Origin: Colwellia sp.
Lineage (GTDB): Bacteria; Pseudomonadota; Gammaproteobacteria; Enterobacterales; Alteromonadaceae
Length of the DNA: 46,528 bases
Assembly (NCBI GenBank): GCA_022969215.1
Contig: JALJPA010000009.1
Coordinates: forward strand, 1 to 46,528
Direction: 5' to 3'
Below the pieces are notes generated by a model that was not told where the DNA came from, searched no databases, and saw only the letters and a program-made list of their open reading frames with translations. Every line of letters starts with the position of its first letter. Positions within the stretch are counted from its first letter, which is position 1. The translations under genes and the position numbers were made by a program. This document shows, one piece after another, positions 9,831 through 18,793 of the stretch.

Positions 9831-10478
9831 TGTCCAGTGTCCTTAGCTTGCGTTCAATCCAGTAATTATACAGGTGTTAGTTGCTCGCTTTAGTTACAGG
9901 TTGTTCTCTTAGATGAAACACTTGAACCTCGGAACAAGGCAAGATTCTCTAGTAAAGTGCTAAGTAATTGATATGGAACGCTACCTAGTAACCAGAAAAC
10001 GGTTATTGTGTGATTATTACCCTTGTATTGTTGCAAATTGTATTTACCTTGTTTTTGATTGTGTAGAATTTCCTGTATGTCACTTTCTGTTACTTCACTA
10101 AGGATTGGGCCAAAGTAGGTTCATCGACCTAAAAACGAAAACGGCTATAGGAAAGATGAATCCGGTCGCGCCCCCCGTTTCATATACGAGTCATACATTA
10201 CGAATGAGAGGCAATTGGCCGAATACTGAGGACTTTAGTTTTATATTTTTTATTTTCCGTTAGGCACAGTTCAACGCACAATCAGGGCTGTAAATTGAGA
10301 GGGTCTTGTTCTGTATTTTTTATTTTTTTGTGGGGAAAGTGTGAGTTTTTTTATAGGTTAGGCGCAGCATTTAAGCATAGTTCACTTATCTTTTAAGTGA
10401 TCATAAACCAACTATCCCAAGCAGTTTAAGTTTTGGTACTAACCTAGTGCCAATGTTCCCTTAGTGCGCTTAACGGAC
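9831..10478. other. Non-coding region leading into the cassette array
   Basis: No gene seen. It contains T-rich tracts (around 10240-10256 and 10306-10330) and two GTTAGGC sequences (10259-10265, 10357-10363) that match the integron core GTTRRRY. A hairpin TCACTTA/TAAGTGA is centred near 10389. The sequence GTGCGCTTAACGGACGTTAG at its right end resembles the right half of an attC. The left limit of the cassette array is therefore somewhere here but cannot be fixed. Confidence 0.5.
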
Positions 10479-10735
10479 GTTAGCCTTAGGTTTTTTGCCA
10501 TATATTTTCTCATGAATGTTTATTTTATTGTTAGTGCGTTCCTATACAGTAGGCTGTGATACTTGCTTTCTACAAGAAAGAGCGGATATTTCCTCCTTTC
10601 ACACATCGAACAGTTGCTTTGTTATTTTTAACTCATTGATCTACAGATAATAATCAAGTAATCTTGCCTTATTATAAATTATTGACGATTAACTCCATCT
10701 TGTAGAAAGAAGGCATTTTTCCTCATAATAAAGCT
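10479..10735 (+). repeat. ORF-less integron cassette, copy A (257 bp)
   Basis: Lies between two core-like GTTAG sites (10479 and 10736). From 10494 to 10740 it aligns without gaps to 12208-12454 with about 16 substitutions in 247 bp (about 93-94 % identity). No ORF over 60 codons. It contains the inverted repeat CTTTCTACAAG (10566-10576) / CTTGTAGAAAG (10699-10709) and an imperfect direct repeat around each arm (AGAAAGAnnGnATnTTTCCTC). It sits directly upstream of a cassette gene. Confidence 0.8.
10700..10729 (+). promoter_or_regulatory. Putative promoter at the end of ORF-less cassette A
   Basis: TTGTAG, an 18-bp spacer and CATAAT. The expected start near 10737 would give a leader of about 30 nt carrying the AAGGAG ribosome site of the next gene. 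Both boxes are unchanged in copy B (12414-12443). Match to consensus is only moderate. Confidence 0.4.
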
Positions 10736-10767
10736 GTTAGGCATTTAATCACATAAGGAGATGCATT

Positions 10768-11205
10768 TTGAGTTTCGATTATATTAATGGTGAAAAAGTA
10801 CCCCAAACTTTTATCCATGAAGATTATGAATTAGTTGGCACGCATAATGGAACTGTAAATGTAGAGAGCGGTAAATTTATTCTGCATGGGAAGTTACAAG
10901 GTACATTATGTCTTAATTCTAATGAACCTACTGAAATTTATGGTGAACAACAAGGTACCGTCAGTCTTTCTGGTAATAGTCATGTTTTCGTCAATGGTAC
11001 TATCCAAGGTACAACTACTATCCCATATGGAGCAACCTTAATTATTGAATCTACTGGTAAGTTACAAGGTACTCTTTCGAATGACGGCACTGTAATCTTA
11101 CGAGGTGTATTTGGTGGGGTAACTAGCGGAACAGGCCAAATAATTACTGAAGGAAATGGCTACATAAAAGAGCCTGTTGTAAGAAATGGTATTAATTATT
11201 ATTAG
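10768..11205 (+). CDS. Bactofilin-like beta-helix protein (cassette gene)
   Basis: A 145-aa protein read from a TTG start with AAGGAG 7 nt upstream; the nearby ATG at 10761 is out of frame. It is built of short repeats around the motif LQGT or similar (GKLQGTLCL, EQQGTVSL, TIQGTTTI, GKLQGTLSN, VFGGVTS), spaced about 20 residues. This pattern is that of a right-handed beta-helix as in bactofilins or the YDF-type polymer-forming proteins. No signal peptide. First gene of the cassette array, followed by attC at 11216-11307. Confidence 0.65.
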   Translation: MSFDYINGEKVPQTFIHEDYELVGTHNGTVNVESGKFILHGKLQGTLCLNSNEPTEIYGEQQGTVSLSGNSHVFVNGTIQGTTTIPYGATLIIESTGKLQGTLSNDGTVILRGVFGGVTSGTGQIITEGNGYIKEPVVRNGINYY

Positions 11206-11215
11206 TGGTGAAAAT

Positions 11216-11307
11216 GCCTAAAAAGTTGCTTAAACGGAAAAATAACAGTTGGCCATCGCTTCGCGATTATAGCCAACCATTATTTTCCGCTTAGCAAGGC
11301 GTTATGT
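11216..11307 (+). other. attC recombination site 1 (92 bp)
   Basis: The left arm GCTTAAACGGAAAAATAACAGTTGGC pairs with GCCAACCATTATTTTCCGCTTAGC across a short loop, with a few extrahelical bases as is normal for attC. The right core is GCGTTATG. The left core is degenerate (GCCTAAA). Placed 10 bp after the stop of the gene, as expected. Confidence 0.85.
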
Positions 11308-11334
11308 TTTTTAAATTTAGTCCTGGGAACGAAA

Positions 11335-11964
11335 ATGAAAGTCGATATAAAGTGGTGCGATTTAAAAAAAATTGGTGATACTAAGTTTGTAAATTCAATG
11401 TATATGTGGATCTTCGTTGTGCCATTATTAGTAAAAGCTTTTGAATATGTCGAAGATGAAAAACTTATATTTCAAATTTTTCAGCAACAACTTCCAATAA
11501 GTACTTCATTACCTTTCTCATGGAGCATGTTTTATTTCAGTGCTTTTTTCTTGGCTTTAGGTAATTTAATCTATTTGTTTAAATGCCCCAAAATAATTAA
11601 AGAACATCCCACTTATCAAAGTTATGTTAACGAAGGCAAAAAACTCAAGCAGTTAGGTCCGTATTGTGACGATATTTCATTTAATTGGCAGACGTTAGCT
11701 GAACAAATAAACCATAAAAAAGAAAGACTACAACTGAATAAAATGAATTCAATAGCAATTAGTTCTGTACGGAAAAATGAACCTGACTTCGATGTAGAAG
11801 ACCCTATACACTACTTTTGGCCAATACATAAATTTGGGGATGTAAAATTTCCATTTTATAGACGTATATGCACAACACTTTTTATTGTTGGATTCTCTTT
11901 ATTTGGAATTGTTGCACTTCAAAATTTATGGACTGTAGTTTCATTTTTAATGGCCAAAACATAA
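11335..11964 (+). CDS. Membrane hypothetical protein (cassette gene)
   Basis: A 209-aa protein with membrane segments at about residues 22-38 (MYMWIFVVPLLVKAF), 62-82 (SMFYFSAFFLALGNLIYLF) and 180-205 (CTTLFIVGFSLFGIVALQNLW). A hydrophilic charged loop of about 95 residues lies between the second and third. Proteins of this sort are common in marine integron cassettes but I do not recognise a function. The TAA stop lies inside the left end of the following attC. Confidence 0.65.
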   Translation: MKVDIKWCDLKKIGDTKFVNSMYMWIFVVPLLVKAFEYVEDEKLIFQIFQQQLPISTSLPFSWSMFYFSAFFLALGNLIYLFKCPKIIKEHPTYQSYVNEGKKLKQLGPYCDDISFNWQTLAEQINHKKERLQLNKMNSIAISSVRKNEPDFDVEDPIHYFWPIHKFGDVKFPFYRRICTTLFIVGFSLFGIVALQNLWTVVSFLMAKT

Positions 11965-12054
11965 CAAGTTGCTTAAACGGACACAAACAGCTGGCTGTGC
12001 TCGTTCCTCGCTATTATAGCCAGCCATTTTTAGCCGCTTAGCAAAGCGTTATCA
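11959..12054 (+). other. attC recombination site 2 (96 bp)
   Basis: TAACAAGTTGCTTAAACGG opens the site, the inner arm CAGCTGGCT pairs with AGCCAGCC, and it closes with CCGCTTAGCAAAGCGTTATC. Very similar to attC site 1 outside the loop. Confidence 0.87.
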
Positions 12055-12092
12055 ATACAAAATATAATCCGAAGCATTGATTGACGCTTATT

Positions 12093-12199
12093 AGCTAATG
12101 ACCGCAATGTGGTAAAAGTGAGCCTTAGCTTTTAACCAATGGGCTATTCAAAATAGTTCACCGCTAATGACTTCTTGGTGCGCATTCCGGACGTTAGTA
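12093..12199 (+). other. attC-like site of a gene-less cassette
   Basis: The left arm AGCTAATGACCGCAATGTGG is roughly complementary to the right arm GTGCGCATTCCGGACGTTAG. Since the preceding core is at 12048, the cassette between would be about 145 bp and consist of little besides this site. A related left half (AGCTAACGTC...TGTGGTAAAAGTGA) recurs at 14811-14839. Confidence 0.55.
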
Positions 12200-12449
12200 A
12201 TAAAAATTTTGCCATATATTTTCTCATGAATGTTTATTTTATTGTTAGTGTGTTCCTATACAGTAGGCTGTGATTCCTGCTTTCTACAAGAAAGAGTGGA
12301 TACTTCCTCCTTTCACACATCGAACAGTTGATTTGTTGTTTTTAACTCATTGATCTACTGACAACAATCAAGTAATCTCGCATTATTATATATTATTGAC
12401 GATTAACTCCATCTTGTAGAAAGAAGGGATTTTTCCTCATAATAAAATT
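12193..12449 (+). repeat. ORF-less integron cassette, copy B (257 bp)
   Basis: Same length and layout as copy A (offset exactly 1714 bp, no indels), including the inverted repeat and the TTGTAG/CATAAT boxes at 12414-12443. Again ends at a GTTAG core (12450) and lies 23 bp upstream of a cassette gene. Confidence 0.8.
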
Positions 12450-12472
12450 GTTAGCTGTGTCATGGAGTATCG

Positions 12473-13339
12473 ATGAGTTTTCAAAGTAGGGAATGGTTTT
12501 ATTCATTCAGAGAATTAGAAGACCTAGCAACGAAGCAAGAACTAGATAAAATCTCCAGCCGAATAATAAAACAATATGCAGCAATAACTAAAAATTGGAA
12601 TAAAGAACTTAATTCAGAGTGGACTTGTAGAACTTACTTTGCAACTAACATGATTTTAAATGCTACTGTTTTATTAAAGAATGCAGAGTACGCAGAAGAA
12701 AAAAACTTAAGAATTGTTAAGCCTTATATTGAGTATTATGCGGTTTTATCCCTACTACGATGTGTAGTTTATACACTTCCAAGCCAGCAGTGGGATAATG
12801 GAAAGTTAATTGAAATATCTCATAGTAAAGCAATTAACTTAGCTAGTGATTGGTTAGCACTTTTCAATAAATCAGAGGCTCAGGAACTAAAAGGTTTCTG
12901 TAAGCTTCTTAAAGCGCAAAGAGAATTAATTTCCTATAGAGCACCTGCTAGCGGGGATGCAAATCTAGACAATAGCTATGATGTTATAAAAATATGCACA
13001 ATATTAGCTGAGCTTGCTCAATTTAATTCGGTTTTATTGGAAGCATCTGTTAAGAAAAATACCGATCCGAAAGACTTTGTCGTTCATAGTGATGATATTA
13101 GCAAAATCGTTAATGTTACTATTGAAGGTATTGAGTTCTATGATCGCTATGACGCCATTCGTCTTGATTACATCAGAAGAAAAGGCCCTTATCCTTCAAA
13201 CTTACTATGCACTATGACTGAAGGGCAAACGGAAGATTATATTGGCGCTTGGGACAATGACGAAAGTTTTGAAACCGATGACAGTATTTATCATGGTGGT
13301 AGTCCTTGTGAATGGCAAACCATCTTTGACATCCCGTGA
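12473..13339 (+). CDS. Hypothetical helical protein (cassette gene)
   Basis: A 288-aa soluble, mostly helical protein with no signal or membrane segment. A conserved-looking motif AQRELISYRAPASGD is near residue 150, and the C-terminus is acidic and aromatic (EDYIGAWDNDESFETDD). I do not recognise it. TGGAG about 7 nt before the ATG. It lies behind ORF-less cassette B and is closed by attC site 3, so it is a single-gene cassette. Confidence 0.65.
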   Translation: MSFQSREWFYSFRELEDLATKQELDKISSRIIKQYAAITKNWNKELNSEWTCRTYFATNMILNATVLLKNAEYAEEKNLRIVKPYIEYYAVLSLLRCVVYTLPSQQWDNGKLIEISHSKAINLASDWLALFNKSEAQELKGFCKLLKAQRELISYRAPASGDANLDNSYDVIKICTILAELAQFNSVLLEASVKKNTDPKDFVVHSDDISKIVNVTIEGIEFYDRYDAIRLDYIRRKGPYPSNLLCTMTEGQTEDYIGAWDNDESFETDDSIYHGGSPCEWQTIFDIP

Positions 13340-13345
13340 AAACAC

Positions 13346-13444
13346 AGCTAACAAGCAATTCAACAAGGACAAAAAACAGTTGGTTTTTGCTCCTTCGTGC
13401 TTATTTTAACCAACTATTTTTTGCCTGTTAATTGGGCGTTAGAA
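13346..13444 (+). other. attC recombination site 3 (99 bp)
   Basis: Begins GCTAACAAGCAATTCAAC and ends ATTGGGCGTTAGAA. The inner arms AAAAAACAGTTGGTT and AACCAACTATTTTTT are complementary. A different lineage of arms from sites 1 and 2, as expected for cassettes gathered from different sources. Confidence 0.85.
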
Positions 13445-13470
13445 TTTCAATCAACTATGGATATTAATTA

Positions 13471-14007
13471 ATGAGTGAAGCAGGGAAATCTTTTGAGTGC
13501 TCTATAAAAGATGCTGAAGAATTACTTATCAGATTTGATAAGGAAAATAACACCACATCACAACCTAACTCTGAGACATTAAAGAGAGCAGGTATGGTTA
13601 TCGCTATGGCTGCTTGGGAAACTTACGTTAAAGATCGCTTTAGAGAAGAAATCGATTTTTGGTTAGCCTCCGTTAACGGGAGTCTTCTTGGTAATTTTGT
13701 ACAGAGAAAAGCAAATGAAGATTTAAAACGCTTTTTCAATCCAAACACTGATCGTATTAAGCAACTATTTAAGAGTTACTTTGAAATTGATATAACATCT
13801 GGTTGGGTTTGGGATAACTACCAAGCACCACAGGCGAAAAAAGTGTTAAATGAACTTATTGCCAAGCGTGGAGAAGCCGCTCATATTGCCAATACAGATC
13901 CATGTGGTGCACATATTATAAAGAGAGATGACCTTGATAAAGCTATTAGGTTCTTAAAAGGCTTAGTTAAAGCCACTGAAAATGTTGTGGTCGTAAAAAA
14001 ATTCTAA
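13471..14007 (+). CDS. HEPN-domain protein, RiboL-PSP-HEPN type (cassette gene)
   Basis: A 178-aa helical protein. An N-terminal helix with AGMVIAMAAWETYVKDRF around residues 42-58 and the C-terminal KRGEAAH motif (R-x4-H, about residue 131-136) are the signature of HEPN domains of the RiboL-PSP type. In active HEPN proteins the R-x4-6-H motif is the RNase site, so a growth-arresting RNase is possible; other HEPN proteins are inactive partners. No antitoxin gene is apparent beside it. Closed by a shrunken attC. Confidence 0.7.
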   Translation: MSEAGKSFECSIKDAEELLIRFDKENNTTSQPNSETLKRAGMVIAMAAWETYVKDRFREEIDFWLASVNGSLLGNFVQRKANEDLKRFFNPNTDRIKQLFKSYFEIDITSGWVWDNYQAPQAKKVLNELIAKRGEAAHIANTDPCGAHIIKRDDLDKAIRFLKGLVKATENVVVVKKF

Positions 14008-14059
14008 CAAGGCGTTTAAACGGACAAAAAGCAGTTGGCTGTTTAATGTGGCGTTATAT
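14002..14059 (+). other. Shrunken attC site 4 (58 bp)
   Basis: The left half is canonical (CTAACAAGGCGTTTAAACGG through CAGTTGGCTG), but the expected right arm is missing and the site passes within about 15 bp to TGGCGTTATAT. It looks like an internal deletion. Confidence 0.6.
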
Positions 14060-14090
14060 TTCAGTGTTCCAAAGGTTAGAGTTAATAAAT

Positions 14091-14744
14091 ATGACTGATA
14101 AAATATTTAAAGAAATCTTCAATGTTACTTTTCTAATTGCAATTTTTACTGGGATTTTATATATAGCAGGTTATTCATATCACGGAAGCTATGTAACAGA
14201 ACTAACTTTGCCACATGATCTATTCAATGTTTCTTTCAATGAAGCGTTAATAACGGGTTATTATATGATGTTCTTAGGTGGTTTTTTTACTGTTATTCCT
14301 GCTGTCATAGTTACTTTTTTGATTTTTATGTGTTTACATTTAACAGGAGAGCTATCAGAACTGAAGCTGGTAAGAAAAATAGTTACCTTTTTCTTTGTTA
14401 ACAAAAAGAAAGAACATCAGCTTGAAAAACCTCCATTTTTAAAGAAGTTAATTAAATTATCATTATCCGTATTTTGTTTTTTCGCTGCGCTTCTTTTTAT
14501 ATGGTTTAGTCTTCATTCGATAAATACTTTCTCTAGTGAACAAGCAGTTGATAGTGCTAAAAAAAGTTTAAATAAAGCTAAAAAGGAAACAGTGGGAGTA
14601 ACAATTTCTGTTAATAACTCAAAATTTGAAGGTGTTATTTTAAGGTGCTCAGCAAGTCATTGTGCAATTTTAAATAAAGAAAGTAATAGCTTGTTAATTT
14701 ACCCAGTTTCCTCAATTAAGAATATTGAGATTGCACAAACTTAA
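14091..14744 (+). CDS. Membrane hypothetical protein (cassette gene)
   Basis: A 217-aa protein from the ATG at 14091 with AAAGGTTAGAG upstream. The ORF-track start at 14046 lies inside the attC and is improbable. Three membrane segments: about residues 8-27 (FNVTFLIAIFTGILYIAGY), 55-85 (YYMMFLGGFFTVIPAVIVTFLIFMC) and 125-150 (LIKLSLSVFCFFAALLFIWF). The last 60 residues form a small beta-rich soluble part. Family not recognised. Followed by a minimal attC. Confidence 0.6.
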   Translation: MTDKIFKEIFNVTFLIAIFTGILYIAGYSYHGSYVTELTLPHDLFNVSFNEALITGYYMMFLGGFFTVIPAVIVTFLIFMCLHLTGELSELKLVRKIVTFFFVNKKKEHQLEKPPFLKKLIKLSLSVFCFFAALLFIWFSLHSINTFSSEQAVDSAKKSLNKAKKETVGVTISVNNSKFEGVILRCSASHCAILNKESNSLLIYPVSSIKNIEIAQT

Positions 14745-14773
14745 ACATACAAGCGCTTAAGCGGGCGTTATCG
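14744..14773 (+). other. Minimal attC-like site 5 (30 bp)
   Basis: ACATACAAGCGCTTAAGCGGGCGTTATCG has the outer arms of an attC (CGCTTAAGCG) with no central stem or loop. Followed at 14811 by a stretch resembling the attC-like site at 12093, so another gene-less cassette remnant is likely there. Confidence 0.5.
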
Positions 14774-16058: not shown

Positions 16059-17147
16059 ATGGGTTTAGCTGAGGCTTTGATTAATCTTCCACAGTCTGAA
16101 AGAGGCGGTGAGATCGCTCAACGAGGGTTTGACTATCAGACCTGCTGGGCACTATCTCAAATGCTGGAATATGAACTGGATGGAAAAAACTATGTTTTTA
16201 TTTTTGAGTACCATGATGATGTTCTAATTTTAGATGATGAAGATTCTCCGAAAGATCTCACTTTTGCTCAAGTAAAAACCAGCGAATCCCATTGGACCGC
16301 TTATGATTTACGCAAGAGTACAAAGGCCAAACCAACCTCAATAATTGGTAAGCTATTCATTCATCATAAGAACTTCTTTGAATATTCACCTAAACTATTA
16401 TTTGTTACGAATGCTTCCTTCAACTTATGTGAAAATAATGGCGGCAAGTCTTCTTTTAGTGCAACTGAAGTGAAAATTGAGCATCAGGTTGGATTCAAAC
16501 AAGCAATTAAAGAACAAGTAATGCTTGAGGATGCGAGCATTGATCTTTCTTTTTTAAGGTTTGTTCAATCTTCACTAAGCCTAGACGATCACATCACACA
16601 TATAAAAGGTAAGTTGTGTGACTTTCTTTCTAAGAAATACGGTGATCAAACTACACTAAGTGTGCATGTACTAGCAGCTTTGCTAGAAAAAGAATGCAGA
16701 AATAAATCTAAGATAAAATCAGCTGACATCATCGATTTTAAAGATCTGATTTCTCGTAAAGGATTCTCTACTCAAGCATTTAATGGGGTCCTCGATTCAC
16801 TAAATACAAGCAATAGTTTTAAGCCTGACTGGGAAATGGCAAAAACAGTTTTTAATGATTTGAGTAAAACCCCATTTCAGCTCATCCCCCTACAAGCGAC
16901 TTTCTCACGAGTTTGTATTGATTTAAACCAAAGCACAAAGAATCCGTCGAATGTATATTTAGAGCATGCTATTAGCCTTCATGATATATCGGGTATTAAC
17001 TTGGATTTAAAACTCTATGTAACTGAGGTTATGATCAAAATTGATGCACTGTGCCCAGATTATACGATGGCTCTAACGTCAAGGAAGAAAGAATGTATTG
17101 TTGTTTACTCAATAGTTCAGAAGTTACTAGAGGAAGGTGAGAAATGA
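16059..17147 (+). CDS. lmuA: Lamassu-type DUF4297 (Cap4-like) nuclease subunit
   Basis: A 362-aa protein whose N-terminal 120 residues match DUF4297, the PD-(D/E)xK nuclease domain of Cap4 and LmuA: ERGGEIAQRGFDYQTCWAL, then EYHDDVLILDD with the catalytic Asp, then FAQVKTS with the QxK motif. The remaining 240 residues are helical and would bind the partner or DNA. In Lamassu defence LmuA is the effector DNase held inactive until the SMC-like LmuB senses foreign DNA ends or replication forks. Its stop overlaps the next start (ATGA), the expected two-gene operon. The closest alternative is another ABC-three-component system. GGGA precedes the start by 5 nt. Confidence 0.75.
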   Translation: MGLAEALINLPQSERGGEIAQRGFDYQTCWALSQMLEYELDGKNYVFIFEYHDDVLILDDEDSPKDLTFAQVKTSESHWTAYDLRKSTKAKPTSIIGKLFIHHKNFFEYSPKLLFVTNASFNLCENNGGKSSFSATEVKIEHQVGFKQAIKEQVMLEDASIDLSFLRFVQSSLSLDDHITHIKGKLCDFLSKKYGDQTTLSVHVLAALLEKECRNKSKIKSADIIDFKDLISRKGFSTQAFNGVLDSLNTSNSFKPDWEMAKTVFNDLSKTPFQLIPLQATFSRVCIDLNQSTKNPSNVYLEHAISLHDISGINLDLKLYVTEVMIKIDALCPDYTMALTSRKKECIVVYSIVQKLLEEGEK

Positions 17148-18793
17148 AAAATATCTATTTCAAAAGTGCTCACATATTATCCCTTAGTGATAAAAAAGGG
17201 TTCTTTTACGAGTTTTCTCCAGACATTAATATAATTACTGGTGAAAATGATACTGGAAAATCCAGTTTTATCAAAAGCTTGTATCACACATTAGGTGCTG
17301 ATGTTCGCCTCGATAAAAGGTGGAAAAGTGACGACTTCATTTCAAAAGTAATAATTCACGTTAAAAAACGTGATTATGCTTTTATTCGTTACAATATGCG
17401 TATTTCTATTTTTGATATCACTGAAGGACAGGATCACATTGTTACTTCTAACTCTCGAACAGAAATTGCTCGAGTTGTAGGAGATATCTTTGATTTCAAC
17501 TTAGAGTTAGTTGTAAAGAACACTTTAGTTCAAGCTCAAGCCCAACCCGCTAGTCTGTATTTGCCTTTTTATATCGACCAAGATAGTGGTTGGGGTAAAA
17601 TTTTGGATTCGTTCAGCAGCTTAGCTATGTACAAAGATTGGCAAAAGAACATCCTTAACTTCCATGCTGGTGTTAAACCGAAAGAATTCTACCAACTTCA
17701 AGGGGAAATTAACTTAATTGACTTTGAACTTGATGAAGTTAGAGCAACATTAAAAGCTCTCGAGGCGGCTAAAAAACGCTTTGAAGATTCATTCGGTAGA
17801 GTATTATTTGATGTTGATGTTGGATATTATGAAGAGCTGTTAGAGCGCTTTCTCCGTCGGTGCCAGGACTTACATCAGAAAGAAACAAAATACAGAATCA
17901 AGTTAATAGAAGCCTTGTCCCTTCGAGACGAAATTATATCTGAAATAGAAGAGTCTAAAGGACAACTTGATGAAAATAACATTGACTCCTTATCTCCATC
18001 AGCAAGTATAGATGCCAAATATACAGTGCTTGAAAATAGAGATAAATTGTTGCTGATCATTCCTGCATTGTATGAACAAAAATCTGTGTATGATGAAAAA
18101 ATAGCTAGAATCAAAGAAGAATTGAAAAGCGCTAAAAAGTTAAGTTCTGAACTGAAAGAAATGCTTCAGGAAGTTAAAGGTAAATTAACTCTTCAAGATA
18201 TTATTAAAGCTCAAGCAAGCAAGCAGGTTGAGTTTACTTTCGGCGAACAAATTAGTGAGTTGCTTGAAGAAATAGGTCGATTAGATGTTGCTAGAACAAA
18301 ACTAACAGAAAAAATAACTGAGTTTGATGATAAAAAGCGTACAAAAAAAATTAACGATAAGTTCAAAGAGTCATTGAAGTTTGCACAAACTGAATTAGGT
18401 ATTCAAGATCCTAAACCGGGTACGATTCTTCAGTATGGGGCTATATCAAAGAGTGAAACTGGAAGCCGTGCGCCAAGGGCGATACTTGCGTACCACTATG
18501 CTCTTCTAAAAACGATTGAAGATAAGTCTACAATCCCAATGCTACCAGTCGTAATTGATTCGCCTAAACAACAAGACCCTGACAGGAATACAACGAAGAA
18601 AGTCTTCGATTTGTGTATTAATGGCTTGTCTGAAAATAATCAACTTATTATCGGTTCAGTTTCCTTTGAAAGAGAAACTGATGAGTTCAAAACATTGATT
18701 ATGACGGATAAATATAGCCTGTTAAAACCTGGTCTATATGAAAAGGTTTATCAACAAATAATGCCCCTATACCAAAAATCTGTATTGTTATAG
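17144..18793 (+). CDS. lmuB: Lamassu/ABC-3C-type SMC-like ATPase
   Basis: A 549-aa ATPase with Walker A GENDTGKSS near residue 34 and a Q-loop region before residue 150 (LYLPFYIDQDSGWG). A coiled-coil arm and return run from about 185 to 425 (ELDEVRATLKALEAAKKRFE and SAKKLSSELKEMLQE). A signature-like SETGSRAPRAILAYHYALL precedes Walker B LPVVIDSPKQQDPDR near residue 470. This is the Rad50/SMC layout of LmuB and related ABC-3C sensors. It is at the short end for the family, with a short arm. No lmuC follows, so this is the two-gene form. The next gene is 380 bp away. Confidence 0.75.
   Translation: MKNIYFKSAHILSLSDKKGFFYEFSPDINIITGENDTGKSSFIKSLYHTLGADVRLDKRWKSDDFISKVIIHVKKRDYAFIRYNMRISIFDITEGQDHIVTSNSRTEIARVVGDIFDFNLELVVKNTLVQAQAQPASLYLPFYIDQDSGWGKILDSFSSLAMYKDWQKNILNFHAGVKPKEFYQLQGEINLIDFELDEVRATLKALEAAKKRFEDSFGRVLFDVDVGYYEELLERFLRRCQDLHQKETKYRIKLIEALSLRDEIISEIEESKGQLDENNIDSLSPSASIDAKYTVLENRDKLLLIIPALYEQKSVYDEKIARIKEELKSAKKLSSELKEMLQEVKGKLTLQDIIKAQASKQVEFTFGEQISELLEEIGRLDVARTKLTEKITEFDDKKRTKKINDKFKESLKFAQTELGIQDPKPGTILQYGAISKSETGSRAPRAILAYHYALLKTIEDKSTIPMLPVVIDSPKQQDPDRNTTKKVFDLCINGLSENNQLIIGSVSFERETDEFKTLIMTDKYSLLKPGLYEKVYQQIMPLYQKSVLL

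Follow-up and report, generated by a model that had tools for sequence, protein, structure and literature searches.

Two integrase-less copies of a Colwellia integron attI region, each probably heading its own short cassette array

The stretch of DNA analysed here, hereafter the window, comprises 46,528 nt of a Colwellia sp. genome (assembly GCA_022969215.1, contig JALJPA010000009.1, forward strand). It holds two copies, A and B, of a gene-less element that we read as an integron recombination site (attI) with its cassette promoter (Pc), lying apart from any gene (intI) for the integron integrase (IntI). An earlier note had described two near-identical copies devoid of open reading frames (ORFs), and these are real: A (10493-10740) and B (12207-12454) align over 248 nt with 16 mismatches and no indels (94% identity), similarity runs on leftward at 89% to 10449 and 12163, and the longest ATG ORF lying fully within the unit encodes 44 aa in A and 33 aa in B. 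The next genes start at 10768 and 12473, which is 32 and 23 nt past the crossover G of A (10736) and B (12450), in agreement with the spacing of 23-32 bp given in that note. Its description of each copy as a closed 257-bp cassette was wrong: the right end of both copies is a recombination point (G10736, G12450), the left part belongs to a different dispersed repeat (module X), of which it forms the tail, and B measures 402 nt from the crossover of the preceding attC (G12048) to that of attI (G12450). Two cassettes stand behind A and three behind B. The features of the locus are as follows.

10449-10531, forward strand: tail of module X fused to attI_A (GTGCGC..GGACGTTAG..TTTTTTGCCATATATTTTC)
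10532-10740, forward strand: attI_A, putative integrase-less attI/Pc-like region, crossover after G10736 (nhmmer against attI profile, E 4.9e-57; GTTAGGC at 10736)
10566-10709, no strand assigned: inverted-repeat arms of A, CTTTCTACAAG (10566-10576) and CTTGTAGAAAG (10699-10709), possibly IntI sites
10636-10664, forward strand: putative promoter of the A cassettes, TTGATC-17-TAATCT, conserved in position across 56 aligned copies
10737-11301, forward strand: cassette A1, encoding a 145-aa protein with a weak, sub-threshold bactofilin match and carrying an attC (R'' GCCTAAA, R' GTTATGT)
11302-12048, forward strand: cassette A2, encoding a 209-aa protein and carrying an attC (R'' ACATAAC)
12049-12245, forward strand: START-X module (TTATCAATACAAAATATAATCC ... 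TTTTGCCATATATTTTC), directly past the attC crossover G12048 and fused to attI_B
12246-12454, forward strand: attI_B, putative integrase-less attI/Pc-like region, crossover after G12450 (nhmmer against attI profile, E 3.3e-58; GTTAGCT complementary to AGCTAAC at 13346)
12280-12423, no strand assigned: inverted-repeat arms of B (12280-12290 and 12413-12423)
12350-12378, forward strand: putative promoter of the B cassettes, TTGATC-17-TAATCT, conserved in position across 56 aligned copies
12451-13438, forward strand: cassette B1, encoding a 288-aa protein and carrying an attC (R'' AGCTAAC)
13439-14053, forward strand: cassette B2, 178-aa HEPN_RiboL-PSP gene and short attC (R'' TTCTAAC)
14054-14767, forward strand: cassette B3, encoding a 232-aa protein, with a degenerate attC and a further START sequence (TTATCGATAC..) behind it

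On sequence grounds, the shared core represents the attI and promoter region of the chromosomal integron of Colwellia, because the same sequence elsewhere fills the interval between intI with its LexA box and the first cassette. The core of about 208 nt (10532-10740, 12246-12454) recurs in this position, with intI divergently oriented, at 12 places. Aligned copies have a sharp right end, ..AATAAA-CTG/TTRRRY (the integron crossover motif), and many carry a LexA box, CTG-N10-CAG, at their left side. The divergent gene that begins at the left end of several loci encodes an integron integrase (TIGR02249, E 1.5e-140, 468 bits; cut-off 265). Across the genus, where intI was found in 34 of 39 genomes, the order at intI loci is generally intI, LexA box, about 200 nt, AATAAnCTGTTA and cassette, even where the sequence has diverged. 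A and B themselves lie without a nearby intI, and none was found among the window proteins tested; both end in GTTRRRY at the junction with their first cassette (GTTAGGC, 10736; GTTAGCT, 12450). At least two attC sites without a nearby intI define a cluster of attC sites lacking integron-integrases (CALIN), and here two attC follow A, while two clear ones and a degenerate one follow B.

The A/B sequence is repeated far more than chance would allow. The window's own genome gives nine significant matches, six of which span the core, and among 99 relatives 32 have matches, almost all of them in a single genus (Colwellia), at well-separated loci on single-contig chromosomes. A profile search of the fetched loci returned 69 matches, one of them weak and on the other strand, leaving 68 copies for analysis: 12 adjoin intI, 10 follow serS and the remaining 46 occupy other loci, so that 56 of the 68 have no adjoining intI, and there are several per genome. 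The single-contig chromosome of genome G011, for example, has copies at 353, 734, 2412 and 4133 kb. Some of the loci not linked to serS recur among species (e.g., groups of seven and five), and others are unique. The earlier note had supposed that the unit is used, precedes genes and might recur in integron arrays; further copies in such arrays are abundant, and at most loci the element stands before captured cassettes.

An integrating cassette supplies the bases after the attI G, and these are complementary to the R'' box of its own attC. We therefore compared the four variable bases following GTT in each attI with the four preceding AAC in the first downstream attC. Complementarity was exact at 24 of the 37 intI-less sites, whereas 10,000 permutations of the partners gave 2.7 on average and never exceeded 10; the result is strong, although the compared sequences share ancestry and the draws are not independent. 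Both A (GTTAGGC/GCCTAAa) and B (GTTAGCT/AGCTAAC) show this pairing. The complementarity argues that cassettes really were inserted at intI-less sites as by integron recombination. Sites behind the same upstream gene in different species also differ in their first cassette in 104 of 105 pairs; in the sole sharing pair (serS, G037 and G038) the downstream sequence is a tyrosine-recombinase element and not an ordinary cassette. We detected attC sites by their arm pattern, which overlooks degenerate ones such as that of cassette A1; a home-made stem finder could not tell attC from shuffled sequence and was dropped.

Some observations concern what lies past these sites. At six loci (L016, L017, L141, L150, L193, L203) attI is followed by GTTGAACTAAACCGCTTCGCGGGG, and after this sequence in at least L016 and L017 comes a 283-aa tyrosine recombinase gene, perhaps of an element targeting the attI crossover. 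Recent cassette exchange between G011 arrays was considered from a 1.46-kb, 100%-identical block and rejected: the block is an IS110-family transposase element beside attC and is not counted as evidence because it is such an insertion (the identical elements lie about 3.6-5.1 kb and 4.1-5.6 kb past attI in L174 and L175). In the window, the HEPN_RiboL-PSP gene of cassette B2 (13471-14007) possibly encodes an RNase-type defence or toxin, and a Lamassu-type defence pair, LmuA/LmuB, follows soon after array B (16059-18793; PADLOC E 4e-176 and 4e-289).

The serS locus points to how such orphan sites may have arisen. In G012 intI lies directly behind serS, with intI at a similar place in G024, and ten genomes have the order serS, LexA box, attI with intI missing. 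The LexA box is present at 11 of 12 intI-linked copies, 9 of 10 serS copies and 14 of 35 others (background, 83 of 8801 windows); its retention at serS is explained if intI was lost there from a complete integron, and the locus fits such a loss. Many orphan sites thus likely originated when copies of the integron reached several loci, of which only one kept intI. IntI made elsewhere would recombine attC into an orphan attI in trans (attI x attC), and transcription from TTGATC-17-TAATCT would enter the cassettes. A and B likely work in this way, as attI plus cassette promoter with IntI supplied in trans. We are thus fairly confident in reading A and B as copies, without integrase, of the recombination and expression region of an integron, each at the head of its own short cassette array, derived from a copied integron whose intI was lost at most loci, and with an attI likely served in trans.

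Cores cluster by genome (32 changes vs. 46.5 when shuffled, with none of 200 shuffles as low). Two orphans of G011 are 97-98% identical to that genome's own intI-linked attI, whereas intI-linked attI of different genomes share 78-82%. The single-contig genome G036, which has a divergent IntI lineage, has the attI of that lineage at 744,616; an orphan at 256,983 on the same chromosome is 94% identical to it and has a matching first cassette. This likeness within genomes reflects either recent spread of copies in each lineage or homogenisation. The presence of several sites around the Colwellia chromosome, each followed by cassettes of its own, suggests that a single enzyme may serve many of them.

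A and B belong to a distinct branch of these copies. They fall in a clade of eight copies from five genomes (support 100/100) in which the LexA box is broken, and seven of the eight carry module X on the left. Module X is itself dispersed (16 matches in the window's genome) and in many cases its opening bases, TTATCGATACAAAATCTAATCC, adjoin an attC crossover; this is so in B (G12048), and the start sequence appears again past array B (G14767). START-X copies (L228, L229, L231, L235 and, in the window, those at 12049-12231 and from 14768) consist of TTATCGATACAAAATCTAATCC, an imperfect palindrome and then TTTTTGCCATATATTTTCTAATG. In several X copies not fused to this attI, the tail resembles the attI of a second Colwellia IntI lineage, about 45% identical to the first; attI regions of this second lineage (L252, L254, L255) have TTACTGAG..CTCAGTAA hairpins and their own LexA box. 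In the A/B lineage, attI is fused to this dispersed module, which follows the attC ends of arrays. The X-attI unit appears to have moved, being found at unrelated loci in five genomes, because the eight clade copies have no common upstream gene and rpoD, which lies near A and B in the window, sits in G035 on a different contig from the X-attI copy. That same placement of rpoD makes it unlikely that A/B and the G035 copy are one inherited locus. A Colwellia-like X-attI unit also occurs on a contig binned as a Saprospiraceae metagenome-assembled genome (L099), through either mis-binning or transfer.

How the unit moved admits a supplement to the reading of A and B as integrase-less attI regions: IntI may excise and insert START-X-attI as a gene-less cassette with attI as its own recombination site, with an expected circle junction ..TG/TTATCAATAC... 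B lies exactly between an attC and an attI crossover (G12048, G12450), START follows attC ends, the clade copies share no upstream gene, a homologous unit in G035 (C1) stands between unrelated cassettes, and an array in G033 has tandem X modules, two of which run into an attI-like core. On the other hand, START-X also marks array ends, tandem integrase-less integrons would look alike, START is missing from copies A, C23, C73 and C63, and no excised circle was observed. We regard this supplement as possible, with the balance leaning slightly against it.

Several points weigh against attI regions served in trans. Contigs of draft genomes often break near these sites. The assembly that contains the window, 87% complete, yielded no intact intI of lineage A, just N-terminal pieces of that gene (aa 1-149 on C74; aa 3-84 at the C293 edge) and a stop-containing fragment of a lineage-B intI; an intact lineage-A intI is present in the near relative G035. 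Cassette insertion at orphan sites could predate the loss of the local intI. A general promoter scan counted 6 promoter-like sites, not more than the 8.3 expected, and the candidate -10 hexamer agrees with TATAAT at only about 3 of 6 positions. If the copies were decaying relics, with an attI that no longer works, the want of an intact lineage-A intI in the same genome and the broken LexA box of most non-serS orphans, A and B included, would be expected. Such decay is at odds with the conservation of the cores (mean column identity 81%, many columns invariant), their resemblance to the resident intI-linked attI in several genomes and the different cassettes found in each species, and we consider it unlikely. 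A more tentative picture, to which we would not yet commit, is a distributed integron: one SOS-controlled integrase would serve several chromosomal attI kept similar to the attI of the resident IntI, and the gene-less X-attI unit would move as a cassette, planting new sites of capture and expression.

The earlier note had also proposed a mobile promoter. A promoter-like block does exist, TTGATC-17-TAATCT, whose candidate -10 ends 72 nt before the crossover and which we infer to be the Pc driving the cassettes; the identity of the element is more specific, an attI with its cassette-promoter region. The boxes which that note singled out, TTGTAG-18-CATAAT, are present and conserved (10700/10724 in A, 12414/12438 in B), overlap with the end of attI and are possibly a site for IntI. 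Gene-less promoter cassettes as in Vibrio superintegrons, bounded by attC, without an ORF and bringing only a promoter, are documented (PMC11014356) and would account for conserved promoter-like hexamers before genes. This explanation is quite improbable here: the right boundary is attI sequence and not attC, with only B having an attC boundary on the left, the same sequence adjoins intI and a LexA box elsewhere, and most copies lie outside arrays.

A small RNA or structured 5' leader is the least credible explanation, since a recombination site accounts for the conservation, and the unit showed no Rfam match, a weak consensus fold (-7.74 kcal/mol, covariation term -0.17) and so neither a known RNA family nor a covarying structure. 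In its favour are the conserved long-range inverted repeat (CTTTCTACAAG/CTTGTAGAAAG), correctly reported in both copies, and a conserved palindrome, GAAAGnnGGnAnnnTnCCnnCTTTC (alignment columns 49-71, beside the left inverted-repeat arm), which covaries in part and is possibly a protein-binding site. A phage or plasmid origin was rejected, with no matches in either collection; one match to a viral contig turned up.

In the usual description an integron has a single integrase, a single attI and a single array. Were one integrase shared among several attI, expression would no longer be set by where a cassette lies with respect to one Pc, and CALINs need not be dead, as some may be working arrays under an unrecognised attI. 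Which attI one IntI chooses, and whether attI copies evolve in concert, become questions in their own right. Such sites may be widely missed because IntegronFinder detects no attI outside class 1 (PMC9024848).

Among open-licence papers we found none that deals with integrons of Colwellia or with genomes having more than one attI site. Known already are CALINs, one Shewanella CALIN with its own attI, Xanthomonas CALINs, DeltaattI cassettes and promoter-bearing gene-less cassettes. The Colwellia loci resemble the sedentary chromosomal integron of Vibrio cholerae in the divergent intI promoter with a LexA box, the GTTRRRY crossover and a cassette promoter in the attI region; transcription of V. 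cholerae cassettes starts 65 bp upstream of attI, comparable to the candidate -10 ending 72 nt before the crossover here (PMC3948777). Unlike that system, the Colwellia copies mostly lack intI and number several per genome. In Shewanella, the CALIN of prophage M16-3 is likewise an integrase-less array under the attI type of an intI-bearing integron in the same prophage, but it concerns one prophage and a 28-nt attI, whereas the Colwellia sites are genus-wide and multi-locus, with a region of about 208 nt plus module X (PMC9892861). Xanthomonas CALINs also occupy several conserved chromosomal positions with intI elsewhere; in the passages considered, attI is not reported at those loci (PMC12444791). 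The gene-less cassettes of Vibrionaceae, which stand upstream of cassette genes and may drive them, are attC-bounded and are not attI copies (PMC11014356). DeltaattI-type cassettes of class 1 and 2 integrons have an attI-derived 3' recombination site, functional with IntI1, inserted after attC; B fits this arrangement by position (G12048 to G12450), but those cassettes contain a gene, with 14-18 nt of attI in most, whereas B is gene-less and contains the full attI/promoter region (PMC12901181).
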